Both the position numbers and the translations under genes were made by a program. The notes under the pieces were generated by a model. It made no database searches and had not been told where the DNA came from. It saw only the letters and a program-made list of their open reading frames with translations. Shown in pieces: positions 6,533 to 45,099 of a DNA stretch of 64,000 bases (within the stretch, counting starts at the first letter, position 1; each line of letters starts with the position of its first letter). The DNA is from Anadara kagoshimensis (Eukaryota > Mollusca > Bivalvia > Arcoida > Arcidae). The stretch is taken from contig CM037862.1 in assembly GCA_021292105.1 (NCBI GenBank), forward strand, positions 4,572,895-4,636,894. Reading direction: 5' to 3'.

Positions 6533-8505
6533 AGGTATATGCGATTCGATATATATGTTTTATATGTAATGGAAAAGGTGAATAAAATAAAGAGAATGGT
6601 AGTTTTAAATCGTTATAAAGAAGGTGGACTTAAAGATCCACAAATATTGTCCGTCTGTCGTGCAATGAAAATGTCCTGGTTACTGAAAGTATTAGGTCCA
6701 CTAAATCAGTCAGCCTGGAAAATTCTTCTGGTAGATAAACTAGAACAGTTGCAGGGGATAAGTTACTACAATTACATAAAGATGGATTTATTAAAGTATC
6801 AATTCAATTTAATTCGTTGTGGTAGTCAGTTTTTAAACGTTGATCAGTTATTCAAGAGTCCCCTACCGCAACCTCTAATAACATTTATTACAATGCTTAT
6901 GGTTCAATCCACATATACCTATAAAAAATGATATTTTTGAAAACCATGTTAAAAATGTCTGTTTTGTATCAATGATCTTAAAAATTATAAAGGCAAATTA
7001 TTGACGTTTGAAGAGTGCAAGGCAACCTTTAGTTTATCATTGAACTATTTTCATACATTATTATGTTTCATGCTTTCAGGAGAGACCTGTGCTTCTATAC
7101 TCCCTAAGACAATACTAGCGTAGCACTAGTCCTGAAGGAAAAATAATAATGTTTAGTACATCAACTGACACTTTAATGCATTGTGTATTCTAACCATTGC
7201 TGACCTTTCAATTAACAGTCAGACATTTAGACACAAGACAATTCCAATTGTGTAGTGTACAATCTGGTCAGATATGAATTTATCTTTGTCCTCGTCGTCC
7301 AATCTTGACGCCAGGTTTGTTTACAAATTTGCGTTCTTGTTCCCACGGTGGCGAGTGCAAAAGTATAGTTGCCGTCTAAAAAACAATAGTACCTTGCTGT
7401 CAACGGTACTATACTCGTTGCAAACGACAGACAGAAACTATATAAAATACATATCCAATTGATTTCCTACAATTTATTATGTGATGTACTGTATAATGAA
7501 CTTATTAGTTCTTTGCTAAAATCTTGGAGAAAAACTTTAAAAGAGACTAACATAAATATGATAGATCAGATTACAAACAAGCACAAAGACCTTTTAAAAT
7601 CTTACAGAAAAATAACAAAAGGCTTTTATAAAATATTTGTGACGAATATAAAAGAACATCATATCCATATCAATAATCGTCGAACAATAAACCCAATATT
7701 AACCTTGAGAGACATTTTTGGGATCAAACATACCAGATACCTTTTTTATATAACAGACAATTCAAAACTGCAATTCTATCAATTAAAAATAAAACATAGA
7801 ATATACTTTACAAATATCAAAACGATGAAATGTTAACTTATTGAAACCTAACTTTATACTTTTTGTGGTGAATTTAAAGATACAGTCCAACATAATTTCT
7901 ATAAATGCAATACATCGTATACCAAAAATATCTGGCTATTCTTTAACGAAAAACTTAAGAACACAAAATTCTGAAATTTCCAAAACAACATCGGAATTTA
8001 TATTTGGTGTCCAAACATCGAAGCAACCACTCAACTTGTGTCTGCTACTTACTAATTCTTAGTTGCACCTTTGAAGAATGAATAAAAATAACTAAATGTT
8101 CGTTCATGTTTAGAAACTTTTACAAAAAAATTATTTAATTTTCGGTATCACTGTAATATCCCGGAAAGAGAGATCGAAAATCAAATATTTGGAATGAAAT
8201 CGACTCAATATTAAATCTGTAAAGTGTATAATGATCCCTCTTAGCAATCACAAGTCTGTTTTTTTAGATTAACCTCAATTTAACCATACATAATTTTTTC
8301 AGATATAAGTGCTTCATTATTATTTTATTGTTATTATTGTTATTTTTCTTATTTAAGATATTTAAAAAAGAGAACTGCCCATAAAATATTGTACTGTACT
8401 TGTATTATTGTATAAGTATTATCATTGTATTGTTCAAGTGAGTTTGTTTTGTAACAATATTATATTAATGACTGTTATGTAATTTTGTGTCAAATAAAAA
8501 ATATG
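6533..8505 (+). pseudogene. decayed L1/Tx1-type LINE, ORF2 C-terminal half (copy A)
   Basis: The plus strand encodes, in broken frames, the part of ORF2 downstream of the reverse transcriptase catalytic core. First comes a block around RYKEGGLK (6,604-6,640), homologous to YEKGGLKMIDI in the intact element at 18.2 kb. A continuation follows at about 6,965-7,115 and then another block at 7,459-7,836. Last, at about 7,846-7,905, is the C-terminal CCHC motif (C-x2-..H-x4-C type; clearer in copy B). The 3' end is near 8,505, after an A-rich tail. Stops and frameshifts make it non-functional. About 350 bp at 7,105-7,455 do not fit ORF2 and may be an insertion. Confidence 0.75.
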
Positions 8506-8757
8506 AATCAGAATCATTCGTCCTTAAAGTAGTAAATGTACATTAATTCATCTTTCTCAAATTATAATTACATATGTAGTACAATTTGATCTTTTATAAT
8601 ACAAGTTTAATGTACATATCAGCTATACTTAATTATGTTTGTATTTCTATTGACAATATAGATATAAGTGTTTTATTTTGGTCTTTAAATTCTAGCTTTA
8701 TAAAATTGGAATAATTATTTAATATTGACTATATGTCTATAGATTTTGATCTGTTAA

Positions 8758-8840
8758 GGTATACCTTTTGACATTATATCCAGTGTTCGCCCAGAGTTGG
8801 GGATACCTTTATACATTATATCCAGTGTTTCCCCAGAGCT
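8758..8840. repeat. two-unit relic of the about 42-bp minisatellite
   Basis: Two units read 'acattatatccagtgtt..cccagag' and belong to the same family as the array at 366-1,235. The homologous site in copy B (42,431-42,660) carries five or more units, so the locus has changed copy number since duplication. Confidence 0.75.
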
Positions 8841-8945
8841 TACTAATATTCTTTGTTACATATTTTAGTATCTCGTATTGCTAACGACAATTTTAGTTTT
8901 TTCACAGTGATGTTTAAGGCAGGTGTTGCTCTTTTTATATTTTAG

Positions 8946-9099
8946 TGGTACCGACAATGCTCATTGCTTATTGTTACATGTGCAGTTATGGGTATTATAA
9001 ACTTTTTTAAGCCTAGTGAAGCACATCGTGTTGTGGGTCATATGCTTACTATAGATACTGTTGTTACAGCTCAAGCTACAGCTACTACAACTTTTACAC
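8946..9099 (+). CDS. candidate internal exon conserved in both duplicates (copy A)
   Basis: An acceptor-like pyrimidine/T-rich tract ending in tttag at 8,945 and a strong donor, CAC|GTAAGT, at 9,100 bound 154 nt. One frame is open throughout. It encodes a hydrophobic run (LLIVTCAVMGII), then KPSEAHR, then a Thr/Ala-rich end (TAQATATTTF). The copy B homologue at 42,758-42,911 keeps both splice signals and length, but its first codon is TAG in this frame. I do not recognise a family. A signal-anchor or signal-peptide region followed by a Thr-rich stalk is one reading. No partner exon was found. Confidence 0.3.
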
Positions 9100-9780
9100 G
9101 TAAGTTATATTCTTCAACCTTTTCACTATGTTCTTCTTAATTCCATGAAGTGACAGGCAAGCTACTGCTACGACACTACTCCTTAAATATCAACATAAGA
9201 TATATGAATGTCGGGATTAAAGTCGTATACCTAACAAAAGCCAAACTTCGAAAGTGTTAGAGATATCTTGTAATTTTTAGTGAATCTGGCATGGCGAATT
9301 ACTACTCTGGCATCGGAGTTAGTATTTTGCCATAGCGAATTGCAAAATCCCCCTTATTCGCTTTCGTACACAAGAGCCAGTCAACACAACAATAAATGAA
9401 TGCAATTACGTGAGATAAAAGTATAATCCAAATAATGATAAGAAAGGGGTAACGACTTTATTGGAAATGATATAAAAGCCAATAGACATATAGTGGAATT
9501 GTCCCATATGGTTCCAGGACTTATCGTGGTACAATGTCACATTTCTAAAACATAAATTGCGGTTCACTCATGCTACCTAAATATACCAGAGCGGAAATAC
9601 CATTTCCTTTTACTCGTTATTTTTTTTCGAAGTCTTTTAACAATACTGTATTATTGTAGTTAGGACAGTTAAAAATTAAAAAAGTAAAGAGATACTATAC
9701 ACACATTACTGGAGACCACCGTAACATTGTATCTATATATTTAATACATGTCTGAAGTCAAGGTAACAGCATTAATTTTT
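9100..9780. other. unassigned; partly replaced in copy B
   Basis: No gene is seen. Homology to copy B holds to about 9,415. The next roughly 355 bp (9,416-9,770) are replaced in B by about 670 bp of unrelated sequence (43,215-43,888), after which homology resumes. Confidence 0.6.
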
Positions 9781-10260
9781 TTATTTGACTCAACAACTTA
9801 AATATCAATGTTCACATCACCTGCTATATTGCACAAAATAGAAATTCTGTATATTAACTATGGTGTATATGTTAAAGTGTAAGTTAAACGATTTTCGATA
9901 ATTTGAATATAAATAGTAAATGCCGTAATTAAAACAATGTCGAAAACCCCGTAAACGTACATGGTCTCCTTTTCGAGATATACGTGGTGAAACCTCAAAT
10001 TTTGCACCTGGAAAAATTTGTAATCAAGCCTGTACAGGCAACCTCCGGTTTTCGACGATCACACTTGTGGCGTCATCAATAAGTACATGTAGCGCGAAAG
10101 TGCGCGTGATGCACTAACAACTGTTTGGGTTACAACGACTGAAAGGTTATTTGACTCAACAAGTTAAATATCAATGTTCACATCACCTGCTATATTGTAC
10201 AAAATAGAAATTTTGTATATTAACTATGGTGTATATATTAAATATGTCTACATAAGATCA
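9781..10260. repeat. approximately 100-bp direct repeat flanking 260 bp private to copy A
   Basis: 'gactcaacaa.ttaaatatc' through 'aactatggtgtatat' occurs at about 9,786-9,882 and again at 10,151-10,246, separated by about 265 bp. Copy B has one copy only (43,910-43,997) and lacks the spacer. The structure is consistent either with insertion plus duplication in A or with deletion between direct repeats in B. Confidence 0.7.
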
Positions 10261-10270
10261 GTGACATCAT

Positions 10271-10760
10271 CTTGTTTTATGGCTGGGGATTTATGTAATT
10301 TTGGTCCAACAGAGAAGCATGATTCTAATGTTTCTAAAGAATCATAACTACCAAAAAAGTTTATTCAATAAAATTCTAGTTGCAACAAAATTTGAGTATA
10401 AAGGAGGAAGATAATTCCAAAGTATGTTTTGCCTCTAATTTATACTGTCTTGTGTTGTAGTAATCCTGCTTCCTTTGGTATAGTTTAGTTTTATAATCTC
10501 AGGCTGTATTTTTATCAGCTTTAAATGAAAAAAAAAATAAATGAATTTCTTACACTATATATACCTAGGAGTAGACTATAGTTAAGCGTGTCACATGAAT
10601 GATAATTACTGTGTCATGTTCTTTGTTTCATTAACATTCCACTAGGTAAATAAGGCCGGGTGCTCTATAATAGCAATCTTGTTTTATGGCTGGGGATTTA
10701 TGTAATTGGTCCAACAGAGAAGCATGCTTCTACTATTTCCAAAGAATCATAACTTCCAGT
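10271..10760. repeat. approximately 80-bp direct repeat pair, period about 407 bp
   Basis: 'cttgttttatggctggggat' and the following ~60 bp occur at about 10,271 and again at 10,678. Both members are present in copy B (about 44,027 and 44,427), so this duplication predates the large one. Between them, at about 10,632-10,670, is a minus-strand fragment of the PLE terminal repeat (aaataaggccgggtgctct). Confidence 0.7.
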
Positions 10761-11832
10761 TTTATTGGCTATTTAATTACAAAGTATATTTTTTTTATTA
10801 TACCACTTAAATGTCACCGGTCACCAAAAACCGAATTTTTTTTAGTACTATTTTCCGAAAGATTACATCATAAAAAGTCGATTTAGCCACAAATAACATT
10901 TTTTAATCATATCTGTCCTTTTCTACAGCGTAAATTAAAGTCCTGAAACTGTTGAAAAACTGTGTTATTTCCCTTAGGTAGTAAAAGGGCACAAAACCGG
11001 AAGTGACGCAGAAGGTGTTATCCCAGCTATTTAGTAAATGAAGCTTGTATAGTGAACTGCATTTATTACCCAGATTTATCGAAAATATTTTTTAGTGTTT
11101 TTATATATTTATTTATTGTTTTAGCATTGGGTATTTCAGTTTCCTTCAGCAGAAAAAAATAATAAAAAATAAACATAATAATAAGAAATAAATAAAGAAA
11201 AAAATATATTTGTGTTTGCTCTAAGTATGATATACTATTTACTAATACTTCAGTTACAAAATATAATTTTACATTTCTTTTGGAATTTATTTATTTATTT
11301 ATTTATCTATATCTATTTATCACAACAAATAATAAACGAACCCAAATTTCTGTTTTTTATTGAAAATATTGTTCATATTAATTTTCATTAATATTTAATA
11401 TCATTTTTTTTTTACATATCTCTGATTTATTTATACATTAATTAATTAATTAAGTTATTCATTTATTTATTTATTTTTATCTATTATAAGGAATAATTAA
11501 AAAAAACAAAAATTTTTGTTTTTTATTAGTACCGCTATATTATGACCTCAAAGTGATTTTAATTCATATTTGTTTTAGAAACTGTCCCATTTTTAAATCC
11601 TTCTTAGATTAAAATCAAATATTTATTTACCCATGTAGTGAATTAAAAATTCACGTTTTCGGATAGAATCTGGGTCCAAGACCTGTAGTTTTTTGTACAA
11701 AGAAATATCAAAATAAAGGTTTAAAAATATTTTTTTATTGTCTCTCAAATAAAAATTCACCCTATTATTACTAAATATGAAAACAATGTCAATTCAGTAG
11801 CTTCCTATTCCTTATTTGCAGTACGTTTAATA

Positions 11833-11871
<39 letters not shown>

Positions 11872-12412
11872 CATCATCATCATTATTGTTTCCATGATAA
11901 AATAAAACAAAATCATATAATAACTTTATTACGCTTTATTTTAATGGGATGAATATAACGTCATCAAAATGTGATACCAGTGGGATTACGCTCGACTAAC
12001 TAAGTACTCAAAACTCGAGTGAAACTTCTTTCATTTATTCACAATAAAATTAAAATCGTTCAAAGTGTGATTTACACCCCCTCACATGCCAGTAATTAAG
12101 AGGTTATCAATATGCTACACTGGGAAACATCCTATTTAGAAGTAGACATTTACCACCAGTAATTAACAGAGTTTACCTTACAATATGCAACATTAATTGA
12201 CACGTGCGTATATCTTTATGATATACCCGGTAAATGGTATTTGTCATTTTTGATGGATTCTGAAAATCAAATAAATTAAAGTTAAATTAGATTAGTTAAT
12301 TTGAGCAAGACGTACGTCTCTGTTTGAACGTGTAAATTGGTGAACTGATTGAATAACGAAATTAAATTAATTTTGAAAATTATAATTGTTTAAAATCTAT
12401 ATATAAATCTAT
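10761..12412. other. AT-rich intergenic DNA with simple repeats
   Basis: No genes are recognised. It contains (TTTA)n at 11,284-11,310 and 11,460-11,478, and a (TAA)n/(ATC)n tract at 11,829-11,885. Copy B (44,500-46,250) is collinear but differs strongly in tract lengths, including a longer (TTTA)n at 45,028-45,105 and an (ATT)n at 45,415-45,475 not present in A. Confidence 0.7.
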
Positions 12413-12656
12413 AAGCTCACTAGGATAGATGACATTAACACGTTTAGGATTGTTAAGAGACAGAACGTCATCTATATATCTGTATGTTGAGTTGAATTAT
12501 TTAGCAACAGTTTCTCTCCAGATATAACAAGGTTCTGCATAAATTCTGTTTCATACCAATAACAAAACAAATCAGCAAGCAATGGTGCACAGTTTGTACC
12601 CATTGGTATACCGATTGTTTGCTGAAAAACTATATTACCAAACACAACAAATACGT
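12413..12656 (-). pseudogene. Penelope-like element RT, downstream part (copy A, left of LINE)
   Basis: Read on the minus strand, it encodes reverse transcriptase motif B (QTIGIPMGTNCAPLLADLF), then in a shifted frame motif C (YRYIDDVLSLNNPK). This order and wording are diagnostic of PLEs. The reading frame is interrupted. Upstream coding sequence resumes at 20,118 after the LINE. Copy B (46,252-46,496) is uninterrupted at this point. Confidence 0.85.
12646..12656. repeat. target-site duplication, left
   Basis: AACAAATACGT, repeated at 20,118-20,128. Copy B carries a single AACAAATATGT at the empty site (about 46,483-46,496), followed by the same ttatctatc. The 11-bp pair defines the LINE insertion exactly. 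Confidence 0.85.
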
Positions 12657-12968
12657 GATGAACGATCACGTGATATGAATGGTCAACACGTTCTTTAGAT
12701 CGTAGAGGGTTTTTGGCCAAAATACCTAGGAATTGCAGTTTTGTTTGGGTGAGCGATCAGATTGAATGCTGCATCATAAAATTAAGAAGAACTGTGTGAG
12801 TTTAAATTTGAAAATTTTGTAGTCATTTAAGGTTTTTTTTAACCTTTTCATAATTGTTTGAGTAAACAAAGGACAAAAGTGAACTGTTCTCAGTATATAT
12901 ACTGTATTTAGTATATATATACTACATCGAGTGTATATCGTTTAAACTAACGCAGGTGTGTGATATTA

Positions 12969-14174
12969 ATGCAAAGTATGTCAGGTAAAAACTCTAATGT
13001 GACAAACTGTGTAATCCCATCTGAAGTTAGCATGGCGTTACAGCAACTTCCAATAATACAACATTCACTTCGGGATATTCAGCTTCAGTTAACAGAAATA
13101 AATTCCCTAAAAAGTACCGTATCCCAACTAAAAGCAGAAATATGGGAAGCTGATGGCATCGACCATAGGCTTGCTAATACATCCGACCAAACACAAGAAA
13201 ATACTTCGGATATAGAACTACTTAAGTCTTTCAACTCTGAACTCAGAGAAGAGGTTGATCTTTTAAAATCAGTAGTTATTAAACTTGACAAAAAAGTAAG
13301 AGAACAAGAAGGAGAAATAATTGATTTAAAATCAAGGTCAATGAAGGAAAACATCTTGATTCATGGTCTAGCTGAGGAAAAAGGCGAAAATTTAAAGGTT
13401 CGGGTAAACGAATTATTACGATCGCATCTTGGTATTGATGTAAAATTTGTAAGGATTCATAGGAATGGGGGCAAACCGGGACAAGCTCAACCCAGATCTA
13501 TAACTGGAAGACTTGTCGACTATGAACAAAAAGACCAAATCTTGAAACTTCAAAGAAGTAAAATTAATAGTGAAACATCCTTGCCCTTTCGCATCACACC
13601 GCAATCACCACCTACAGTAAATGAAAATCGAAAAAAGCTTCTAGACTTGAACTCTAAATACAGAACAGGGGGTGTAAATACTCGAGTGGTTGGAAACAAA
13701 CTTATTTATCCGTCCGGTAAAGTATATAACGACAAAGTTACGGTCCCTACAGCTAAGGACGTTTTATGCTTGGATCAAAATGACAAAGATAAGTTAAATG
13801 AGATCTCATCTGTAGAAACCGAAGTGATAAACGACAACGGTAATAAATTCTTGGCGATTTGTGCACCAACTGATAAATACATGCAAGTCAGAAATCTTTA
13901 CAAGAAAGTATGTGGAGACCAAAGATATGCCGGTGCTGATCACAAAATTATGGCATATAGTATTCTGGACGAACAGGGTGAATTACACGAGTCCTACTGT
14001 GACGACAACGAACATGGTGCAGGAAGACGTATACTGAAAAAGTTAAAAGATAACAATAAAATTAACGTTTCAGTAGTGGTAGTTCGATTCTTTAGTGGAA
14101 CTCATATTGGCCCTCGCAGGTTTTCTATAATGGAAAATCTAGCCATGGAAGCTACAAGGCAATTGGCATGTTAG
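12969..14174 (+). CDS. LINE ORF1 protein with coiled coil, RRM-like core and C-terminal UPF0029/IMPACT-like domain
   Basis: 401 residues from the first ATG (12,969); an in-frame stop at 12,948 blocks any upstream ATG, and a second ATG lies at 12,978. Residues about 25-125 are Leu/Glu/Lys-rich with heptad character (coiled coil, probable multimerisation). About 126-200 resembles the RRM-like RNA-binding core of L1-type ORF1 (MKENILIHGL..., then RIHR, then a GRLVDYEQKDQIL strand/helix). About 205-255 resembles the ORF1 C-terminal subdomain (NENRKKLLDL, then NKLIYPSGKVY). Residues about 283-399 match the UPF0029 (IMPACT/YigZ) fold signature: FLAICAP, DHKIMAYSI, a CDDNEHGAGRRIL block at about 344-356 (codons near 14,001) and VVVVRFFSGTHIGPRRF at about 369-385. 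In the family these are the conserved DDGE.AG, VvV.RyygG..LG and RF positions. Here E-to-N and Y-to-F changes are seen. The role of the extra domain is unknown. Confidence 0.85.
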   Translation: MQSMSGKNSNVTNCVIPSEVSMALQQLPIIQHSLRDIQLQLTEINSLKSTVSQLKAEIWEADGIDHRLANTSDQTQENTSDIELLKSFNSELREEVDLLKSVVIKLDKKVREQEGEIIDLKSRSMKENILIHGLAEEKGENLKVRVNELLRSHLGIDVKFVRIHRNGGKPGQAQPRSITGRLVDYEQKDQILKLQRSKINSETSLPFRITPQSPPTVNENRKKLLDLNSKYRTGGVNTRVVGNKLIYPSGKVYNDKVTVPTAKDVLCLDQNDKDKLNEISSVETEVINDNGNKFLAICAPTDKYMQVRNLYKKVCGDQRYAGADHKIMAYSILDEQGELHESYCDDNEHGAGRRILKKLKDNNKINVSVVVVRFFSGTHIGPRRFSIMENLAMEATRQLAC

Positions 14175-15610
14175 ATACGTCTTAATTCTAATCTATTAAT
14201 GTATTAAACCCATTACATTCTCGTGAAGAGCTATAGACACCATCGGTTTATTTCCGGATACAAATCAGATCCGCATCGGTTTTCCTTTTTACAGTTATTT
14301 AGTCTAATAGTCTTCCGTCTGGAAAATTGCAACAATACAGTCTCTTCACATGGATGTAACGGGCGTGTAATCAAACAGTATACAGGTACGCAACAAAGTG
14401 TATTTATAAATAAGTGTTTATTCATACATATGTGAATGTATATTGGTTTTAGATCTGCATACCGATACATGAATATGGAAATAAATACCTGTATAGTGTT
14501 TGTTATGATTAGCACATGTATATATGCATCTCATATTCAAGCTTGATTTTAATTAGTTCCCAGTCCTGGGTGCCTTTACTAAAATCTTCCGAATATTTAT
14601 TTATTTTCACATTTTTTCATTTATTTATTTATGTATTTAAAACCCAAAGTTGATTTTCTATATTGATGCAATTTTGAACTTTTGATCTTGTTGTAAATAT
14701 TAACAAAGCCTTAGAGTGTTGTGCTTTCCCATGTGGTATCTGTATTTATATTTCTGCATATTTTTGTATACATATAGACATGTTGGTATGTGTATGTGCA
14801 GGTGCGTAGATATGTTTATCACTATGTGCAATGTGTATACATATATATGCATGTGTATACATATATTTATTAAGATTTATTGCATATTCATATGTATAAG
14901 TTTATATATATGGGTATGTGTACACATTTGCATATAATCATGGCAATCCGTAACTTCTCGGTTTTTTTTTGCATCTGTGCACATGCACATGCATGCTTAT
15001 GTTTTTGTTATGTATGTGTACATGTTGGTATATGCATATGTATACATATAGTAAATATTAACAACATGCACATGCATACATGCACACACTATGTTGTAAC
15101 ACAGCCTTAGTTTAATGATTTATATAATATATTTAGTGTATGTGCATGTATGCATATGTATGTTTGTATGTGTATATAAATGTGAACTGTTACACAGAAG
15201 ACGGGAGTTCAGATATGTATCATATTGATTTTAGGTATTTTGGTTAAAACAAAAATCCTCTTTGAAACATGAAAGTACAAATAAATTTTGTACTTTTTTT
15301 TACACTACAATCACCTTTACACAAACACACACCACACATCATGTCAACCCCTTGGATTTTCCTCATGTTCAGTATAACCAGTAAAAAATGGTTCAACAGT
15401 TTTAAGAGTGTAGTTAGTATTAAATCACAAGTATGCCTTATCTGTGTTATAAATGAACAATTTAGTCAGGTACCCCTTAATAATAATGAATTTTTGCAAT
15501 TAAATATTGTATATCTTCTTCATATTTATTCCCAAGACCGCTCAGTTCGAAGTGAGATATCCTTTTGTATTGTAATTCATATCACTAGAATTATTTGATT
15601 CAACCCAATC
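14175..15610. other. long ORF1-ORF2 spacer of the LINE
   Basis: 1.44 kb without a supportable gene, unusually long for an L1/Tx1 inter-ORF region. From about 14,740 to 15,190 it is rich in alternating purine-pyrimidine motifs (tgtgtatacatatatgcatg type), which can adopt non-B DNA. It could hold an internal promoter or translation-initiation signal for ORF2, or be a secondary insertion; the sequence alone does not decide. Short open frames on both strands here are not recognised. Confidence 0.6.
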
Positions 15611-18600
15611 ATGGAATCGCATAACAATTTCACAATACTCACTGCGAACTGTAGAGGTCTAAAGGATTATGAAAAGCGTAGGGATGTGTTGAACTTCCTG
15701 AGGTCAAAATCCTATAATATAAATTATACTGCTTACAAGAAACTCATTTGGTAGACAATTTACATTGGGTAATAAGATCAGAATGGGGTGGAGAAATTAT
15801 TCTAAATTCGGTTACATCAAACTCAAGAGGGGTAGGCATTTTATTTAATAATAACTTTGAGTATAATATACACCAAATTAAGAAAGATAATGATGGGAAT
15901 TATATTGCTGTTGACTTGACTATTGATAAGATGAGAGTAACACTGATTAATATATATGCTCCAAATGAGGATAACCCCCAATTTTTCTCAAATATAACAA
16001 AACTTCTCCAAGATTTTGAAAATGAATATTGTATCATAAATGGTGATTATAATTTAGTTCAGAGTCAAGAACTGGACACCTTTGGCTACCTCCATCACAA
16101 TAATCCAAAAGCAAGAAATGTTGTCATAAATATGAAAGAAGAATTTAATCTCATGGACCCTTTTAGAGAACTATATCCAGAGGAAAGAAAATATACTTGG
16201 CGAAAAAAACAACCATTAAAACAAGGTAGACTCGACTTCTTCCTTATATCAGAAAATTTTATGTCCAAAGTCATAGATGTCAAAATCAATCCTAGTTATA
16301 GGTCTGACCATTCATCTGTCTGCTTATCATTAAAATTAAATGAATTCGTTAAAGGTAGAGGCCTTTGGAAGTTCAACAATTCCCTACTAGCAGATAAAAA
16401 CTATATAGATATAGTAAAAAAATGTATAAAAGATATAAAAATACAATATGTAGTTCCTGTTTATAACATAGAACAAATTAATGAAATAAGTAATGATGAT
16501 ATACAATTTACTATTACAGATCAACAATTTTTGAAGCTGCTTTGCTTGAAATTAGGGGAAAAACCATATCATACTCATCTCATCGCAAAAAAATGTCTAT
16601 CCAAAAAGAGAAACAGATAATTGATGAAATTACTAGACTAGAAAGTAACCCCCTATCTAACTTTAATGAAATTAATAATAGAAAGAAAGATTTAGAGGAA
16701 CTACGTAAAGAAAAAAAAAGGAACTCTGTTAAGGTCCAAAGCAAGGTGGGTAGAGGAAGGTGAAAAACCAACAAAATATTTTTGTAATCTGGAATCCAGA
16801 AATTTTGTTAGTAAAATAATTCCGAAAATTATAAAAGAGGATAACTCTATAATTACTGATCAAAAAGAAATCTTAGCAGAAACAAAACAATATTACTCCA
16901 ATCTTTACAATAGAAATAATGATGAGCATGGTATGGATCTCAAATATTTACTCAAAGGTATTACAGATATAAATATTTTAACTGAAGATCAAAAGCAAAG
17001 TTTAGAGGGGGAATTAACAAACACAGAAATTCATAATGTTTTGAAAAAAATGAAAAATTTGAAAAGCCCAGGTTCAGATGGTTTCACAGCTGAATTCTTT
17101 AAATTCTTTTATAATGACCTAGTAAGCTTTTTAAGACGTTCATTAAATGAGGGATTTCAAACTGGAAAAATGTCAATTACACAACGTCAGGGTATTATAA
17201 CTTGTTTACCTAAAGGGGACAAGCCAAAGCAGTTTCTAAAAAATTGGAGACCAATATCACTGTTAAATGTTGTATATAAAATAGCATCTGGCTGTATAGC
17301 TGAAAGATTGAAAAGGGTTTTACCATTTATTATTTCGGAAGACCAGACAGGATTTATCAGTGGCAGATATATTGGTGAAAACACTAGACTAATTTATGAC
17401 TTAATGCAATATACAGAGGAAAAACATATACCAGGTCTACTTTTAATGATTGATTTCGAGAAGGCCTTTGATTCAGTTTCTTGGGTTTATATAGATAAAG
17501 TGCTAGATTTTTTCAATTTTGGCGAATCTTTTATAAAATGGATTAAAATATTTCGACAAGATATTATGTCAGCAGTTCTACAAAATGGATTTGTTTCTGA
17601 ATTTTTTAATATAACAAGAGGTTGTCGTCAAGGGGACCCTATTTCACCCTATATCTTCTTAATGTGTGCTGAGATCCTGTCTATTCTTTTGAAAAATAAT
17701 AAAAATATCAAAGGTATAAAAATTGGTGATGAAGAATTTAAACTTTCACTTTTTGCAGATGACACTACTGTCATACTGGATGGAACAGAGTCATCACTAC
17801 AAGAAACTTTACATGTCCTAGATGACTTTGCATTGCTGTCTGGTTTAAAAATTAATAATAATAAAACAAGAGCAATGTGGATTGGATGTAATAAATACAA
17901 TGGTGAAACTTTTAATCATCGCTTTAAACTAGATTGGAACCAAGGTCCGTTTACATTGCTTGGAGTAAAATTTTCTGTTGATTTAGACAAAATGATAAAA
18001 ATAAATTATGATGAGAAATTACAAGATATTGAAAAAAGCTTAAAACAATGGTCAAAAAGAATTTTAACTCCTTTAGGTAGAATAACGGTATTGAAAACAT
18101 TGATAATTTCTAAATTAAACCATCTATTTATTGCTCTTCCAAATCCACCATTGGAAATAATAACAAAACTGAATAAGATGTTTTATAACTTTATATGGCA
18201 ACATAAAAATGATCGCATAAAAAGAGAGTTAATGTCACAGAGCTATGAAAAAGGAGGCTTAAAAATGATAGATATTAAACATTTTATAGCATCACTCAAA
18301 ATAACATGGATCAGGCGACTACTTCAAATTGAATCTAAATACAAAAAGTTATTTGAGATTTCATATTCTAAGATTGATAATTTCTTAAAGTATGGAAATG
18401 ATTATTTTAATAAAATAAAACAAAATAATCCTAATAATTGCTTTTGGAATAATGTTTTTGATGCCTGGAATTCTTTGTCTATGAGACAAAAACCTGAAAA
18501 TTTAAATGATGTTAAAGATGTAAGTATCTGGTTCAATAATGATATCTGTATAAATAACAGCCCAGTATTCTTCAGATCTTGGTCTGACAGTGGCATACAT

Positions 18601-19419
18601 TTCATAAAAGATTTCCTTAATGAGGATGGAAAATTAATTTCATACAGAGAATTTACTAGAAGGTATGTGGCTGTCAGGGCAAACTTTGTTGAATATCTTG
18701 GTATAAAGTCCACCATTGAATCATATATTAAAAAACTGAATATACAAAACCAACCAGTCAATTTATTACAAGTTGATATACCATACTTTTTCAGAATAGT
18801 ACTTAAAAGTAAAAAAGGGAGTAAGGACTTTTACAATGTTTTTAATAATAACAACCCAACTGTTATAAGTCAGGAAAAATGGAAATCCATTTTAGATTTA
18901 GATATTGACTGGAAATCACTATATATCACCCCCTTTAAAAGTTGTAAAAATACCAAATTACAATGGTTTCAATACAGGATAAACCAAAGAATAATTTCTA
19001 CAAATGATTTCTTATTTAAAATTAATCTAAGAGATAATAATCTCTGTACCTTCTGTAACAATACAGCTGAAAAAATAGAGCATCTGTTTTGGTATTGTGA
19101 GATAATTAATAACTTTTGGATGCAATTAGAGGATTTTATATTTCAAAAAATAAACCGCTACATTAATATTTATAGGGAAAGTGCTATCTTTGGACATATT
19201 AACCAAAAAGAGAGAAATAAACCTCAAAATTTTCTACTTTTAACTACCAGACAGTACATATATAAGTGCAGAATTGATAAAAAACTACCAAATTTAATTA
19301 CATGGAAAATTAGTATTAAATATCAACTTGATATCGAAAAGATCATTGCAATAAAAAATAATCTTTATGACAAATTTCTGGAATTTTGGGATCCATGGAT
19401 AATTATCTTTGATGAATGA
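15611..19419 (+). CDS. LINE ORF2: APE endonuclease, reverse transcriptase, CCHC (three frameshifts)
   Basis: The start ATG at 15,611 begins the endonuclease (TILTANCRGL, then QETH, INIYAPNED, GDYN at about 16,041, RLDFFLIS, SDHSS). The RT follows (NWRPISLLN at 17,246; motif A MIDFEKAFDS at 17,446; motif B GCRQGDPISP at 17,622; motif C FADDT at 17,753). A C-terminal CCHC (CTFC, then H and C) lies at about 19,047-19,100. The combined length of about 1,270 codons is normal for the group. Frames break three times: between 15,705 and 15,733 (frame 2 to 1), at the T5 run 16,528-16,532 (1 to 3) and at the A9 run 16,711-16,719 (3 to 1). Everything downstream of 16,720 is one 830-codon open frame. The breaks may be real inactivation or consensus errors. 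Confidence 0.88.
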
Positions 19420-19589
19420 TTTAATGTCTCCATCCAGCATGACTGTAGTTTTGGTACTGTAGAAGTGAAAATAAAAATATACCATCATGATGTATAATGT
19501 ACATGTATGTCTCATAATGCTTAAAACTATACCTGTATGAAAATGTTAATATACATTTTGTTTCTGAATGTTGTAGGGGTTGACACAAA

Positions 19590-19633
<44 letters not shown>

Positions 19634-20117
19634 TAAACCAAAACCCAGACAAAACTGAAAAGGAAACATGACCCTGTATTTTTTGTTTACTTGGTTACTT
19701 AAAGAAGGGATTAATCTAGCTTAAATTTAACGAATGTTCATTTGATATATTGATCTTTTTTATTGCCACTTTTGAAAGTTTTAAATTCTAATAACATCTT
19801 TCTAATTAATTGTATTGCTATATTTTCAAATACTAGTAAACTTATTCTAAAAAGCTTAAGTGATACTCGTTTAATAGTTGCTTGAATAAGGACCCCCACC
19901 CCTATTAATCAGATGTGCCTTACTACTAAATCTAGATTAATCCCTAGAATGATCAAATACTACACAATTATATATATATATATATATTTATATATCTCTT
20001 ATGTATGTCAGACTGTCCTATTGTTACCCGGCAAGTGAACCCAGTGGCCCCAACCCTGGCACTTGACCATCCCTTATTTAATGTCTGGGGCAATAAAAAA
20101 CACAAATTACAAAAAAA
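19420..20117 (+). other. LINE 3' UTR and tail
   Basis: Contains an (AC)n microsatellite at about 19,590-19,630, a (TA)n run at 19,970-19,990 and a GC-richer patch at about 20,030-20,090. AATAAA is followed by cacaaattac and an A run that meets the right target-site duplication. No coding sequence. Confidence 0.75.
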
Positions 20118-20128
20118 AACAAATACGT
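20118..20128. repeat. target-site duplication, right
   Basis: AACAAATACGT, identical to 12,646-12,656 and immediately preceded by the LINE A-rich tail. Confidence 0.85.
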
Positions 20129-20683
20129 TATCTATCAAAAACTTCAACATTTTGTTGATAGTATCTTCAGTATATTTTTGTTTGGAATCCGTATGGTGCT
20201 TGACAAAATAACCAGAATCCCTGTTCAGCACCATATATTTGTATCTTGGTTTACCGCTTTTGTAAAAGAAAGACAAATGAATAATTTCTTTACGACGTTC
20301 TTTCAGTTTAGAATGAGGGATAGTGGTCTATATTGTAGATAAATCAAATGTTTTTGTATTCCGAAACCGCCGTCTAGTGCTGTAAAATTAAAACTGGTAT
20401 AATATGTAATTTATACTTTTTGCATGAGATAAAGTATTAGAAGCAAGATGTTCAAGTAATTCTTCAGATTTTTTGAGAATCCACATTTGGTTGATTCCAG
20501 ATGTAGAATATACTTTTTCTGAATAAGACTGAAGACCATCTTTGACGATTGTCAAAATTTGTATCAGAGTTACCGATAATGATTTAGTAGTACATTTAGA
20601 TGAGCCTGCTATATTACTTTCCTTGTATGGATTTTTATGGAGTTTAGGAATCCAATACCTTTAAGGAAGATCATTTATCTTAA
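20118..20683 (-). pseudogene. Penelope-like element RT, upstream part (copy A, right of LINE)
   Basis: Minus-strand continuation of the fragment at 12,413. In broken frames it carries the degraded motif A region (STI.TTIPHSKLK) near 20,310-20,345, then SGINQMWILK near 20,490, and WIPKLHK near 20,640-20,660. These correspond in order to the copy B fragment at 46,497-47,036. It ends abruptly at 20,683, where B continues for a further 2.2 kb. Confidence 0.8.
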
Positions 20684-20990
20684 CATGCAGCTTTAGAAAC
20701 CTACCCGTTTTTAAATGATGCCACATTCTAATTTGTTTGGAAATAAAATGCCAACCCCTTCACTATTTGCTGTACCATGTGAAAAATGGATTTCAGACCC
20801 CCATTCGTCTGTTCATTACATAACTAAATCAGGTGTGGGTGTGTTTCTTCTAAAAATATAATTGAGGAAGGGAAATTCTTTTTCAGGAAGTTGCATATAT
20901 TATTACGTTTAAGAGTGTCCCCAAGGAATTTAGATTGTATGATATTATTTCAAAAGATAGATGATACATCAGTGTGATTACTGAGTAATC
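20684..20990 (-). pseudogene. 5' remnant of an older LINE ORF2 (endonuclease N-terminus), copy A
   Basis: On the minus strand, broken frames give FLGDTLKR, then EETH (the QETH-type endonuclease motif), then NEWGSEI and a GILFPN stretch. These match the start of the ORF2 endonuclease seen at 15.6-15.9 kb. In copy B the same element runs on to about 47,420. Here it is cut at 20,683 and joined directly to PLE sequence. Confidence 0.7.
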
Positions 20991-21091
20991 GTAAAACCAA
21001 TACCATGTTGCTTTATTAACACAGTATGATACGAATAATTACTTCATTGTACAAAACTTTTAAAGCTCGATATTATAATAAAGTTATATTT

Positions 21092-21430
21092 GACATATTA
21101 AAACTTGTTGATTCAGGGATATAGCAAGCCTAGGATTATCAAGACCCTCAAAACGTTTATGGCTGCCATCACAGTACTGTTGGTGATTTTGATGTCTCTG
21201 TATTTAGGATCGTCATTGATATATTTGACGTCCCAAAGTTCCACGTTCCTTTCACATATTTTCGATTACACACGTGGCGTATGTAGCTAGCTAAACAGGA
21301 GATGCTTACTATTCCGTAGCACCCGGCCTTACTTCCCTGGTGGAAGTTCACTTATCTTACCTAACTTGTCAGTTCCAAAGTTTATACTTTGATTCTGTAT
21401 TGTGATTCGGTATGTTTGTTGTTGATATCT
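21092..21430 (+). pseudogene. PLE RT C-terminal end plus terminal repeat, plus strand (copy A)
   Basis: The plus-strand frame beginning GYSKPRIIKTLKTF corresponds to the end of the PLE reverse transcriptase (QGY..xRLxxxxKKF in relatives), and runs to about 21,287. The shared terminal repeat follows (gctagctaaacagg, stem, ttccctggtggaagttc, ttgtgattcgg). It faces the minus-strand copy at 22,570-23,700, so about 1.1 kb lies between two inverted PLE ends. Copy B: 49,630-49,960. Confidence 0.7.
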
Positions 21431-22569
21431 ATATAAGTCGAGATGTGATTAACCGGCAACTGTATAACACGAAAGTATATGCTTAGGGGTAAAAGATTAA
21501 CCGAAAACCGATATAGGAGAGATAAAATGATGGCGTAGTTATAAATGATCCATATCAAAATACCATTTCATGATTATGTTTAAGTTATTTAAAATAGTTT
21601 GTGTATTTGTGTGAATAATGGGAAACAACACCTAGAAATCTGTTTAAACCCAAAAACAAGACACAAGTCACATAGAGATGTTAAGATCAACTACATGTAC
21701 AAACTTACCAATCCATGTTCAATTCACAATCTCAAAAGCAAAGTAAACATTTTTGAAAACTGGCAAATTAAGTAAATCAATGTTAGTGAGCCTAACTAGC
21801 TACACAAAGTGTTAAATCAAGAATTACTGGTATGCCAACTAAAAATACCCCATTCATAAATTGCAATAGACAAAGAATCACTGTGGTATCAGAACTTTGG
21901 TCTGTCATTATATTGAAATATCGATGTTAGTATATTAGTTGCCTACCATATGATGTACGTGCCTTAGAAACTTCTCCAGTTTATTTGTCTGTTGAGAAAT
22001 GAACTTCAATATGTCAGATAGCCAGTTGAGCAAATTGCATCCATGAGTAAATTTAAACTTATATAATTTTTGATGGAAACCGCTGGAATGATTTGGACCT
22101 TTAAATTGAAAGAAGACCTTTGTTTTCTGGAAAATTAATAGTTTTGAGATTTAATTCATAAATAACAAAATAAGAATTGAAATACTGATATTAACCCCAT
22201 TGTACCGGTTTTCTCTCTCTTTATTTCAAATGTTCCATGTCTTTACTATTCAAATCAACTATGTCGTTTTAAAAAAGGTTACACAAAATAATCTTTTGTC
22301 TGATAGATTTGTTCAGATGACAGTTACATGAACCATAAGTTTTCAAGCTTCTATGTTTTTTCGGTTGATTGAAAATATGTGTACAAAGGTTTTATTATTT
22401 CACGTCAATGTGATTCATGACCTCCGGGTTAGTCAAACAACCTTTCAAATACGATAGGGCGATATGGATTGCTGTTATAAGCAGATGATGAATGGTTTTA
22501 CTATTTCGGTTTATCACATATGTTACAAACTATCAAAAGAAATACTTAAAATCAAAAACAAACATACTC
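21431..22569. other. spacer between inverted PLE ends; no gene seen
   Basis: Almost identical (about 99%) to 49,961-51,110 in copy B. It contains one more degraded terminal-repeat-like stretch (about 21,700-21,810: 'ccatgttcaattcacaatc', 'gctacacaaagtg'). No coding potential is recognised. Confidence 0.6.
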
Positions 22570-23700
22570 ATCAATGTCCGAATTACAATCCAGAAGCAAA
22601 GTAAAAAACTTGGGATCTGAGAAGTCAGGTTAGATACGTAAAATTCCATCAGGGAAGTGAGAACGAGTGCTCCGGAAGGGTAAGCACTTCCTGTTTAGTT
22701 AGCTACACCCGCCATATGTGTTATCAAAAATACGTGAAAGGAACATTTAACTATGGAACGTCAAATATATCCAGGACAATTCTGGACACTGAGACATCAG
22801 ACTATTCAACAACTCTGTGATTACAGACATAAAACTTTTTGAGGGTCTTAATAAGCCCAGGTTTGCAATATCCCTAAGTCAACAATTTATTTGCAACCAG
22901 CCTACTTTGTTGTACAAAATCCCAGTGGTGGGAACAGGCTTTAACAGAGCGTATTAATTGGGAAACAAATACACCATAAGCAGGAGAAGCAGGTATATCG
23001 TTATATAGAAAAGGAAAGTTGACACTAGAAAAATTTAAGTCATCACCTGTGTCATAAAGTTTCAAAGTTAACCTTCCGTGGGCGTGATCATTCCGGTAAA
23101 AGTCTAAATATGCAACAAAACTCCCTGGGATAGACAACGTTCACATAGTCTCCAAATTTAGGATTGTTAAGAGACAGAACATCATCTATATATTTGTATG
23201 TTGAGTTGAATGATTTGGCGACAGTCTTCTTTCCAGATTTGCTGACATTTCATAATAACAAAAACAACAAAAATGTTATCTATCAAACTCTCCAACATTT
23301 TTTAAGTTATCTTCAGTTTTTGTTTGGAATCCGTATGATGCTTGACAAAATAACCAGAATCCATGTTCAGAACCAGATAATTGTATCTTGGCTTATTGTT
23401 TTTCTAAAAAATGACAAGTGAATAATTTCTTAAAGACGTTCTTTCAATTAAGAATGAAATATAGTGGTATATAGTGTAGAAGACTCAAATGCTTTTTAAT
23501 CTATTTACACGAGATAATGTATTAGAAGCAAGATGTTCAAGTAATTCTTTAGAATTTTGAAGAATCAACATTTGTTGATTCCACATGCAGTAGATATATT
23601 TTTTAAATAAGACTCAAGACCATTTTTGAAGATTGTCAAAATTTTTGTATTACCGATAATGACTTAGTAGTACATTTAAATGAGCCTGCTATATATCTTT
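22570..23700 (-). pseudogene. Penelope-like element, RT C-terminal half with terminal repeat (copy A)
   Basis: Minus strand: a WIL.KSKELLEHLAS-type block lies near 23,500-23,570, YRYIDDVLSLNNPK near 23,160-23,200, and the frame at 22,874-23,137 encodes AYLDFYRNDHAHGRLTLKLYD, then NFPFLYNDIPASPAYGVFVSQLIR. That last order is the classic PLE RT thumb region. The terminal repeat follows at 22,570-22,870. Motif B and the N-terminal RT core are deleted or shifted. Copy B: 51,110-52,240. Confidence 0.85.
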
Positions 23701-24639
23701 TCTTGAATCGATTTATATTTTTATTAATAACTTATAAATACATCTTATTTATATTTCAACATTGAATTTATTTCTTGAATATTGTTTTGGTGTTTTTACC
23801 ATATACAAGTAACAACCATGTTCATTAGCTTTTTAATCATACTGCGTCCTTACTTCATACACCCTTAAACAGTAAATGATTCAAACTTTGATATCATATA
23901 CAGTGACAAATTTACAAAGTGCGATGTGGTGGAGATGAGCCACATTTAAGTCTGTGTAAAAATGAAACAGAACAATCAATTTAAAGAGTAGAAAAATGTT
24001 TATAAATACACAAAAAAGTTTAAAAAAATAATATTTAACACTAAAAATATGATCACAGATTATAAATGGAACAACATGTCCACTGAAAGACTTGAAGCAG
24101 CAAACCTTACTTACTAACAATCTTGGATTGATTCTGTCTATCAGGATATGCCCTGTATATTATATATAGCAATACTAATTAACAAACCTCTAATTAAAAT
24201 ACATAATCTATGTTCCTATTATACATAAAACAATCAGTATTACCATTAAAGTGTTCAAAAAAGTCAATTCAGAGAAAAATATTTTACCAGATAAACCAAA
24301 GAAAAAACTATGAATGATATGAATTTAATTAGCAAAGTTTCCAAGTTATCGAAATCAATTCGATCAAGTATGAGTTAAAATATAATGGCTTGGTTTTAAA
24401 TTGTTATTATTGATGTTTAATCTGATTTTTACAAGATCGTTATTTCCAGTATTTAAGCTGGACTAGCTTAATCAACCAACACCCATCAAATTTTGCAATA
24501 TTAGTCCACCTTGATAGAAAGATTGTTTATTAGACATTCCTAAGATTGGAACACATACATTTAATCAACAGGATGTGTTCTTACAATTAACAAAATTGAT
24601 TGTCAGGTGTTCGGATAGAATAACTTTTCCTTTTCTATG
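23701..24639. other. unassigned AT-rich DNA
   Basis: Collinear with copy B 52,241-53,179 with only scattered differences. No gene, RNA gene or named repeat recognised. Confidence 0.6.
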
Positions 24640-25120
24640 CAATAATATTCCTGCTTATTCTGTTTATGGTGTATTTGTTTCCTAATTAATACGCTATAGT
24701 ATATACGTAGAGCTTGTTCCTACTACAAGGACTTTGTACAAACGAAGCAGGCTACTTGTAAATAAATTGTTGACGGGAACATTACAAACCTAGGCTTATC
24801 AAGGCCCTCAAAAAGTTTTATGGCCATCATCACAGTATTATTGATACGTTTATCACAGTATTATTGATGCGTTTATGTCTCTGTGTCCAGGATTGCCCTG
24901 GATATTTTTGACGTTCCATAGTTCCGTGTTTCTTTCACACAATTTTGATTACACACGTAGCGGGTGTAGCTAGCTAAACAGGGGGTGCTTACGCTTCCGT
25001 AGCACCCGGCCTCACTTCCCTGGTGGAAATTTGTGTGTCTAACCTAACTTGTCAGTTCCAAAGTTTTTACTCTAATTCTGGATTGTGATTCGGGTATGGA
25101 TTAGATGGATTAGTACGTTT
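24640..25120 (+). pseudogene. PLE RT C-terminal end plus terminal repeat, plus strand, second copy (copy A)
   Basis: A plus-strand degenerate frame (AYSVYGVFVS.LIR, then SRLLVNKLLT, then the KPRLIKxLKK-type end) at about 24,655-24,830 is followed by the terminal repeat at 24,965-25,120 with a perfect six-pair stem (ggtgct / agcacc). It faces the minus-strand copy at 26,770-27,640. Copy B: 53,180-53,660. Confidence 0.75.
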
Positions 25121-25387
25121 GTTTTTGTTTATGATACCTGGAAAGATTATACCTGAATCGTTTTCTGTTGCCTTGAATTTAGAATTTTTAATAAGTAAAC
25201 TGATTGTAAAAATACTTGAAATATTTAGCATAAAAATCTAGTGTTATTGGATACCTTACTGACCATGGGAGCATGACGGAATTATATAATTTTAAAAAAT
25301 AGCACTTTAAATAAACTTTACCACCGGTCATTTAATTGTATTCTTTTTTGTCAATTCTTCTGTTTTTTTCGTGTCAAATATAATTAA

Positions 25388-25389
25388 TT

Positions 25390-25421
<32 letters not shown>

Positions 25422-25474
25422 TTTATTTATTTATTTATTATTATTTATTATTATTATTATTAATTAATTTATTT

Positions 25475-25522
<48 letters not shown>

Positions 25523-25580
25523 TTATTATTAATTGATTAATTAATTTATTTATTTATTATTTACTTATTTATTAATTAAA
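25388..25580. repeat. (TTTA)n / (TTAAT)n tetranucleotide array
   Basis: About 190 bp of interrupted TTTA repeats. Length and interruptions differ in copy B (53,930-54,125), as expected for a mutable microsatellite. Confidence 0.95.
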
Positions 25581-25977
25581 TAATGGTGCATTATAAGCCG
25601 ATTCAGGATGGTAGAAACTTGTTAGGTATTGATGTTTGATTAATTGATATTATTTGAACCAGGGTGGTCAGACGGCTTTTTTTAAAAGTATTTATAAATT
25701 TAATAACATCATTTACTTTATACAAATTTTTAGTTTTCATTTTATTTTTGGTCACATTTTCAATCCAAGATGCATCTTTATATTTTCTTCATCATCGAAA
25801 AAAATGGCCTTTGAAATACACACATTTATTTTTTTCAAATTTCTACTTTTCGTTTGTTTCTTCGTCACATATTCAGTCTAAGATTCATTTATACATTTTC
25901 TTCATCATCGGAAAAATTAGTCTTTAGAATACATTGTATGGAAATCTGGGCTCTTGTTGGACTGAAAATTATCAAAA

Positions 25978-25983
25978 TCACAT

Positions 25984-26026
<43 letters not shown>

Positions 26027-26043
26027 TTATTTTTTATTTATTT

Positions 26044-26075
<32 letters not shown>

Positions 26076-26082
26076 TTCTTTA
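25978..26082. repeat. (TTTA)n array
   Basis: About 105 bp of TTTA repeats; copy B equivalent at 54,527-54,605 is shorter. The Tyr/Leu/Phe/Ile open frame through it is artefactual. Confidence 0.95.
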
Positions 26083-26384
26083 CTAGCATTAGATACTGAC
26101 ATATGTCAATAAGTTAACTTGGTAAAAATCTTCCAAATTGCATAAATGTCTGCCTGTGTTGTATTTGAAGCCGGTTCCAAGTTTCGATGTTACGTTGAAT
26201 TTTTTGCAGCATGTGCTGTCTGTAAGAGTTTCATTATAATTTAATATCAAAATTTATTATAAAATTTTAACAAGCGACCATTAATTCTCGTATATTTGAT
26301 AAATAATCGTCACATATATTTGGTTGTGCCTAAGCTTACATTCAGAAATTCTGGGTCTCCACTCAGTTTGATTATAGTATTCGT

Positions 26385-26735
26385 ATGGTTCTGGATCAAA
26401 TAAATTCAGCTTTACGCCAATTTATTAATTTTAAAGTTGACTATTTCTTCCCAAAATAATGGCGAATTATATTACACACACAGGTGCACGTCAGAGTCGT
26501 TAATGGTTTGCCTATTTATCATATCATGCGTCTCTACATCAGCATTATTAGTACTGTCCACCATGTTAGTTAATACAACGGTTACTTTACTGACGTCACA
26601 TTCGAATCAGCCTCGATATGGATCGCTTCACTTACAGCTACCCAGAGAAGGCCCGCTTTAACTTTCTTATTTAGTCATTAATTTTGATGCAGTTTTCGAT
26701 ATTGTGATATTAAAATGGTATTTAAAACAAATATG
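26385..26735 (+). repeat. approximately 350-bp dispersed element, plus orientation
   Basis: Shares most of its length, as an inverted copy, with 34,925-35,290. Common blocks are 'acgccaattt', 'caggtgcacgtcagagtcgt', 'actgtccaccatgttagtta', 'tgacgtcac' and 'ttaattttgatgcag'. The similarity is about 75-80% by eye. Non-coding. It is probably a non-autonomous transposon; ends not defined. Copy B: about 54,905-55,250. Confidence 0.7.
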
Positions 26736-26769
26736 AAATAAGAAGTTTTAGTTTTGGATTGTGATTCGG

Positions 26770-27640
26770 ACATAATCCAAAACAAACATACTAACCCATG
26801 TCTGAATCAAAATCCAGAAGCAAAGTAAAAACTTTGGAACTGACAAGTTAGGTTATACACGTGAACTGCCACCAGGGAAGTGAGGCCGGGTGCTCCGGAA
26901 GGGTAAGCACCTCCTGTTTAGCTAGTTACACCCGTCACGTGTGTAATCAAAATTGTGTAAAAAGAACATTGAACTATGACACGTCAGATATATCCAGGGC
27001 AATCCTGGACACAGAGACATCAAACTTATCAACAATACTGTAATGACGGCAATAAAACTTTTTGAAGGCCTTGATATGTATAGGCTTGTAATATCCCTGA
27101 GTCAACAATTTATTTGCAAGCAGCCTACTTCGTTGTACAAAGTCCCCGTAGTTGGAACAATCTCCATCATAGCATATTAACTGGGAAACAAATACACCAT
27201 AAGCAAGAGAACCAGGTATATTGCTGCATAAAAAAGACAGTTGACAATAGCAAAATTGAAGTCATTACGTTTGCCATAAAGTTTCAAATGTAGCCTTTCG
27301 TGTGCGTCATAATTCAGGTATGTTTATATATGAAGCAGAAATTGAAGAATCAGGCGTGCTTTTATTTCTAGCTCTCTAGAATAGATGATGTTTACATAGT
27401 CTCCAAATTTAGGATTGTTAAATGACATTACGTCATCTATATAGGAATGATTTGGCGCCAGTCTTGTCTCCAGATTTAACAAGGAACTGCATAAATCCTG
27501 CTCCATAGGAATAAAGAAACAAATCAGAAAGCATCGGTGCTCAGTTTGTACCCATTGATATACCGATTGTTTGCTGAGACTATATTACCAACACAACCAA
27601 TATGATATCTATCAAAAATTCAAACATTATGTACATAAAT
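26770..27640 (-). pseudogene. Penelope-like element, RT C-terminal part with terminal repeat (copy A)
   Basis: Minus strand: a motif B remnant lies near 27,540-27,590 (QTIGISMGTN-like), SYIDDVMSFNNPKFGDYVN near 27,400-27,445, then LAYGVFVSQLI and SRLLANKLLTQGY near 27,110-27,220. The terminal repeat spans 26,770-27,060. Multiple frame breaks. In copy B (55,290-56,145) the motif B and motif C segments fall in one frame, showing small indel differences between copies. Confidence 0.82.
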
Positions 27641-32784: not shown

Positions 32785-32786
32785 TA

Positions 32787-45068: not shown

Positions 45069-45099
<31 letters not shown>

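Follow-up and report, generated by a model that had tools for sequence, protein, structure and literature searches.

Open reading frame 1 (ORF1) proteins of LINEs have been arranged in a scheme of types I–V, in which zinc knuckle, PHD and esterase domains occur as additions; UPF0029 is not named in the part of that account that describes the types (PMC4120745). The ORF1p of L1 binds RNA, with the RRM and the CTD acting together (PMC4120745), and in mouse, L1 ORF1p co-sediments with polysomes and still has ribosomal proteins bound when RNase has been applied (PMC10289378). The UPF0029 or 'ancient' domain spans bacteria to animals (PMC7140605, PMC4503747). Its function is called unknown in a review (PMC7140605) and likewise in PMC4503747. 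Invariant residues cluster on one side of the domain in both Yih1 and YigZ (PMC4503747), and Yih1 and its relative IMPACT associate with ribosomes (PMC7140605). A search of the open-licence literature found no paper that links UPF0029 or IMPACT with a LINE.

The DNA analysed here, termed the window, is a 64,000 nucleotide stretch of the bivalve Anadara kagoshimensis. It carries an L1-like LINE whose ORF1 protein is a type II (L1-type) ORF1p with a C-terminal UPF0029 'ancient' domain. A sequence-only reading of the window had held that the described ORF1 types add zinc knuckles, PHD or esterase domains and not UPF0029, which agrees with the type I–V scheme as described (PMC4120745).

The ORF1 protein

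12,969–14,174, + strand: ORF1, 401 codons from ATG, with coiled coil, RRM, CTD and UPF0029 (Pfam, predicted structure)
13,347–13,604, + strand: RRM of the L1 ORF1p type, residues 130–215
13,842–14,153, + strand: UPF0029/IMPACT 'ancient' domain, residues 295–398 of the 404 aa frame (Pfam envelope, fold match)

The open frame that holds ORF1 (12,960–14,174, 404 aa) is intact in the window copy. The predicted structure displays, in order, a coiled coil situated ahead of the RRM, an L1-type RRM, an L1-type CTD and a UPF0029 fold. In the model the RRM and CTD match L1 ORF1p folds, and a structure match to the UPF0029 fold is found for the predicted C-terminal domain. The UPF0029 family (PF01205) is matched by hmmscan with an E-value = 3.2e-19 and 69.3 bits vs a gathering cut-off of 27. 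No Pfam L1 ORF1 model is among the four families listed by hmmscan at E up to 1; the fold match stands. The sequence-only reading had placed a UPF0029 domain at the C-terminal end of a LINE ORF1, behind a coiled coil and an RRM-like core. Both of these are present in the predicted structure together with an L1-type CTD, and the profile search with PF01205 and the fold comparison with YigZ and IMPACT that it had suggested are both significant. That this is a LINE ORF1 with a true UPF0029 domain is virtually certain.

The RWD domain (PF05773) was not detected in ORF1 by hmmscan at E up to 1, and its absence had been correctly read from the sequence. Since there is no N-terminal RWD domain, ORF1 carries the domain of IMPACT but is not itself an IMPACT protein.

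The LINE insertion and its target site

12,657–20,117, + strand: whole LINE insertion (5′ UTR, ORF1, spacer, ORF2, 3′ UTR, A-rich tail), delimited by the flanks joined in the second copy
15,611–19,419, + strand: ORF2 (endonuclease, reverse transcriptase, zf-RVT), from a three-frame translation; frameshifts split it into several frames
12,646–12,656, + strand: left target-site duplication AACAAATACGT, 11 bp
20,118–20,128, + strand: right target-site duplication AACAAATACGT, 11 bp, immediately 3′ of the A-rich tail, its first two A's common to the tail
46,469–46,494, + strand: empty target site in the second copy of a segmental duplication (window self-comparison)
12,472–12,656 and 20,129–20,276, − strand: putative Penelope-like reverse transcriptase gene split by the insertion (motif)

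ORF2 matches the Pfam families Exo_endo_phos_2 (4.2e-5), RVT_1 (4.4e-34) and zf-RVT (1.5e-7). The nearest PDB chains are human L1 ORF2p (4e-63), with R2 at 2e-25. By this PDB similarity, which does not tell the L1 and Tx1 clades apart, the element appears to be L1-like. The window copy itself is probably immobile because its ORF2 is frame-shifted.

The insertion is 7.5 kb long, holds both ORF1 and the L1-like ORF2, and ends in an A-rich tail followed by the 11 bp target-site duplication. Its flanks, 12,000–12,659 and 20,106–20,673, are found uninterrupted at 45,834–47,036 with 95–96% identity and without the insertion. This second copy belongs to a large duplication within the window, with up to 98.4% identity over 14.9 kb (20,671–35,490 vs 49,207–64,000, 98.4%; another part, 6,534–12,659 vs 39,984–46,494, aligns in pieces at 90–95%). 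The first copy contains 12,657–20,117 and the second copy does not; the LINE insertion postdates the large duplication.

A different reading is that ORF1 is no LINE gene at all, but a host gene or exon, or the product of a chimeric assembly, and that the ORF2 nested close to it is unrelated. The long spacer of 1.44 kb between ORF1 and ORF2, the higher GC content of ORF1 (0.37, vs 0.29 in ORF2) and a short CA-rich repeat on either side of ORF2 would fit it. However, the empty site spans both ORFs, diverged ORF1 families are found with the same downstream ORF2 and the same A tail within single target duplications, and there are over 100 genomic matches and the same ORF1 in other species. This reading is refuted for practical purposes.

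Several other features of the window were observed. The large duplication (6,534–12,659 and 20,106–35,490 vs 39,984–64,000) may represent a genuine tandem duplication, or the assembly may have retained both haplotypes. The gene that received the insertion, on the opposite strand, is one we take to be a Penelope-like reverse transcriptase from the motif GIPMGTNCAPLL; relatives of it are situated at 22,550–27,660 and 51,100–56,170. A repeat array at 367–1,228 has copies approximately 83 bp apart that are 82–88% alike. The 3′ UTR of the LINE contains (AC)24 at 19,583–19,630 and (TA)13 at 19,969–19,995, and the stretch between them is absent or different in other copies, e.g. L019. L021, a genomic copy with a different ORF1 family, begins GATCACGTGATAT, and the start of the window element is near-identical, GATCACGTGATATG; the remainder of the two 5′ modules cannot be aligned. 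The shared start is a possible conserved 5′ terminal motif. There were no Rfam matches in 12,500–20,300.

Copies in the genome and in other species

The genome (1.115 Gb, 36 contigs) shows at least 106 ORF1 matches, with 103 of 972 first-look candidates scored, and at least 150 places over the PF01205 cut-off, with 150 of 275 candidates scored and all 150 passing; at least one of these places is bacterial. Twenty long stretches were examined, 19 of them distinct. Over its entire length the window element aligns collinearly with L012 (99.0%) and L014 (97.3%). L010 matches the window flanks as well and is a duplicate of the same insertion, not an independent one. Eleven stretches (L018–L028) represent eight diverged ORF1 families.

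An L1-like endonuclease on the same strand lies downstream of the UPF0029 domain in 18 of the 19 distinct stretches. Among the 11 stretches with a diverged ORF1, 10 have the endonuclease and nine the reverse transcriptase (RT); L025 has neither and L026 the endonuclease only. Ten loci were checked for target-site duplications, of which L010 repeats that of the window. Convincing duplications were found in six of the nine independent loci: the window (11 bp), L014 (17), L019 (12), L021 (15), L027 (15) and, read by eye, L012 (approximately 11 bp). None was convincing in L016, L022 and L023.

All 26 open ORF1 frames that were read, mostly selected as open from the genome matches, have the UPF0029 domain at the C terminus, the very diverged families included. 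The domain is a regular constituent of ORF1 in this group of LINEs. A comparison of 97 proteins gave 55 with both RRM-CTD and UPF0029, 30 with RRM-CTD only, many of which are cut fragments, 11 with UPF0029 only, six of which are IMPACT, and one with neither. Six proteins (P0082, P0084, P0085, P0087, P0092, P0096) stop at about the CTD and look like ORF1s that lack the domain.

A protein search with the full-length ORF1 retrieved 51 relatives, with identities of up to 49% across most of the protein, and a Tegillarca granosa relative is 63% identical over a part. A profile search gave 93 matches. The named sources of ORF1 with UPF0029 are all bivalves (Saccostrea echinata, Saccostrea cucullata, Ostrea edulis, Crassostrea virginica, Crassostrea gigas, Pinctada imbricata and Tegillarca granosa); most relatives carry no species name, and the range may exceed bivalves. 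Other matches cover the RRM part but not the UPF0029 domain; they include P0095 of the coral Paramuricea clavata and several unnamed proteins. A region search with the domain alone yielded no matches among 30 candidates, taken as a limit of that search since the full-length ORF1 gave 51. Viral contigs, prokaryote genome contigs and phages yielded no relatives, which is little informative as these collections contain no animal genomes. The recurrence of the domain in other genome copies, in proteins of other bivalves and in units bounded by target-site duplications speaks against a chimera or a separate host exon, either of which would have undone the earlier reading.

Five gene models from Ostrea edulis and Saccostrea that bear the names 'protein IMPACT homolog' or 'IMPACT-like' (P0032, P0036, P0041, P0047, P0072) match the LINE ORF1 or pieces of it, and these names are therefore misleading. 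A 'protein IMPACT homolog' is also among the candidates of a Crassostrea gigas salinity study (PMC5989259). P0036 and P0054 display a second precomputed domain, PF28159, beside UPF0029; the Pfam copy used here gave none for P0054.

Exchange of ORF1 between elements

15,267–15,302, + strand: junction zone, 36 bp (DNA alignment of elements with other ORF1 families)

Five ORF1 families (the window, L019/L020, L021/L022, L023 and L026/L027) share only 34–60% identity per domain, whereas the ORF2 DNA of the other four is 89–94% identical to that of the window. Upstream of the junction the DNA is unrelated between ORF1 families, and downstream it is 77–87% alike up to the ORF2 start. The similarity starts abruptly, approximately 310–345 bp ahead of ORF2, at 15,267 (L019, L020, L023), 15,296 (L026, L027) or 15,302 (L021, L022). 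L018 shows the opposite pattern, with the ORF1 nearest to that of the window (57–66%) but an RT just 50% identical. When RT and ORF1 trees of 11 loci are compared, each rejects the topology of the other (AU p = 7.5e-5 and 1.4e-41). The simplest reading of these alignments and trees is that elements have swapped their 5′ halves (ORF1 modules), through recombination or template switching.

Two other explanations were rejected. Hyper-divergence of ORF1 alone would not put the RT and ORF1 trees in conflict and, because they do conflict, is insufficient. A CA-rich 12 bp repeat that flanks ORF2 (15,321 and 19,589) suggested an ORF2 nested inside an ORF1-only element; this is rejected because elements with other ORF1s share the 3′ module to the same A tail, and the target duplications enclose the entire unit.

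Comparison of the ORF1 families with one another shows saturated dS (undefined or 1.4–3.2), with dN at 0.25–0.69 in UPF0029, 0.26–0.68 in the RRM and similar values in the CTD and coiled coil (Nei-Gojobori, own script). With dS saturated and the dN ranges matching, purifying selection on UPF0029 is about as strong as on the RNA-binding core.

Origin of the domain

The alignment shows a short DDGExxAG loop in the ORF1 domains and in IMPACT alike; the loop of bacterial YigZ is two residues longer. R387 and F388 are present in 100% and 93% of ORF1s and in all seven IMPACT sequences, vs G/L in 6/6 YigZ. A tree of 69 domains (117 columns) places all 56 ORF1 domains beside IMPACT and apart from YigZ. 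Support is 99/100 for the YigZ split, 86/95 for the branch to five IMPACT and 64/53, which is weak, for ORF1 monophyly. The tree contains no animal IMPACT because the host's own IMPACT gene was not isolated; genome searches with PF01205 (150 of 275 candidates scored) and with an IMPACT query (138 of 290 scored) were swamped by copies of ORF1. Loop, residues and tree together make it probable, and fairly strongly so, that a eukaryotic gene of the IMPACT/Yih1 type was the source of the domain, without the RWD. The sequence-only reading had proposed capture of a cellular UPF0029 domain by a LINE lineage; this is supported, and the likely source is narrowed to a eukaryotic IMPACT-type gene.

Three candidates for the host IMPACT were rejected: C22:147631 is a bacterial-type YigZ, and C4:33470408 and C4:5462190 are ORF1 fragments by context. 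The YigZ frame lies in 29% GC DNA of contig C22 (728,465 bp) at 147,100–148,500 (L039), beside a frame that is presumably a DHH phosphoesterase by its appearance. C22 may derive from a symbiont that was assembled along with the host, or from contamination.

Possible role of the domain

It is proposed that trimers of ORF1p would coat the element RNA via the RRM and CTD, while UPF0029 may dock to a protein or ligand and in this way tether the nascent ribonucleoprotein particle to the translation machinery (the ribosome or ribosome-bound factors). Docking would favour packaging of RNA under translation and would use the conserved pocket of the ancient domain, not a basic RNA-binding face. The docking step is put forward tentatively. 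In its favour are the ribosome association of Yih1 and IMPACT (PMC7140605) and the behaviour of mouse L1 ORF1p towards polysomes and ribosomal proteins (PMC10289378). Against it, the Yih1 region sufficient for binding Gcn1, actin and the ribosome is mapped around the RWD and linker (PMC4503747), and ORF1 is without that region. As a whole, the explanation that joins an L1-like LINE ORF1, an IMPACT-type domain and docking is the best available and is held with moderate confidence.

The conserved family residues bear on a second reading, in which the domain keeps an ancestral YigZ/IMPACT ligand-binding or enzymatic activity and uses it in the course of retrotransposition, with RNA ends, nucleotides or some other ligand as the target. 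The residues H, DDxE, AG, R and G are common to ORF1 (73), IMPACT (7) and YigZ (6), and in up to 73 ORF1 domains they are near invariant (D348 97%, D349 93%, E351 99%, A354 97%, G355 100%, R376 95%, G384 100%). However, H328 is kept in just 77%, and retained activity of this kind is considered somewhat unlikely.

The domain is electroneutral, with a median net charge of 0 in 73 ORF1s and +1 in the window copy, compared with +6 for the RRM and +4 for the CTD; this composition argues against plain RNA binding by UPF0029. It bears equally on the idea of a structural add-on that merely stabilises the trimer or shares RNA binding beside the CTD. UPF0029 does directly follow the CTD, and some other LINEs have an ORF1 with a PHD or zinc-knuckle addition (PMC4120745), but the domain is not basic and its conservation peaks at the pocket motif and is not surface-wide, as far as the alignment shows. 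Such an add-on is a doubtful explanation.

IMPACT and Yih1 inhibit Gcn2 through competition for Gcn1 (PMC4503747, PMC5054600), so that ORF1p might blunt GCN2/eIF2alpha signalling in the same manner and let translation of the element continue under stress. But the competing part is the RWD, which inhibits when overexpressed alone (PMC7140605), and none was detected in ORF1 (hmmscan, E up to 1). A stress-response antagonist is improbable, and the caution of the earlier reading, which had called this idea weak without an RWD, was right.

The docking proposal can be extended to include the exchange of 5′ halves. ORF1p would dock on translating ribosomes (or GCN1-type factors) via the shared pocket, and in addition a single successful ORF2 would be combined in turn with different ORF1s from a fast-diverging pool, as might be expected of an ORF1/IMPACT half caught in an arms race against its host. 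This combination is decidedly unlikely as a whole.

Comparison with known systems

With this element a captured cellular translation-regulator domain joins the list of ORF1 add-ons. Capture of domains by LINEs is already known (PHD, esterase, viral helicases). A LINE group that keeps the domain at saturating synonymous divergence is a natural experiment on its role: retrotransposition can serve as the readout, in place of the weak phenotypes that follow loss of IMPACT or YigZ. The bivalve gene models are a warning that a 'protein IMPACT homolog' can be a transposon protein. The elements also show ORF1 halves swapped between elements with nearly the same ORF2.

Human L1 ORF1p (2yko, 2w7a, 2ldy), a type II protein, has the same order of coiled coil, non-canonical RRM and CTD as the window ORF1, but lacks the additional C-terminal UPF0029 of approximately 115 residues. 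IMPACT/Yih1 (RWD plus UPF0029) resemble ORF1 in fold, loop lengths and R387/F388; however they have the RWD, which ORF1 lacks, and in ORF1 the domain is fused to an RNA-coating transposon protein. The YigZ family (1vi7, 2cve) shares the UPF0029 fold and the H, DDxE, AG, R and G residues with ORF1, but the DDGEPSGTAG loop of YigZ is two residues longer and G/L replace R387/F388. ORF1 ends at UPF0029, without the second YigZ domain.

Among LINEs, insect elements with captured helicases (TRAS ORF2, Jockey ORF1) have likewise gained and kept a foreign domain (PMC5563155). The TRAS/Jockey helicase is of viral origin (PMC5563155), whereas the domain of the bivalve LINE belongs to a cellular translation-regulator family. 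In CR1/L2 LINEs, ORF1 types have likewise been exchanged between lineages in a reticulate manner (PMC4120745). Unlike CR1/L2, the bivalve elements appear to have exchanged ORF1 between closely similar ORF2s, with the junctions in one 36 bp zone upstream of ORF2.
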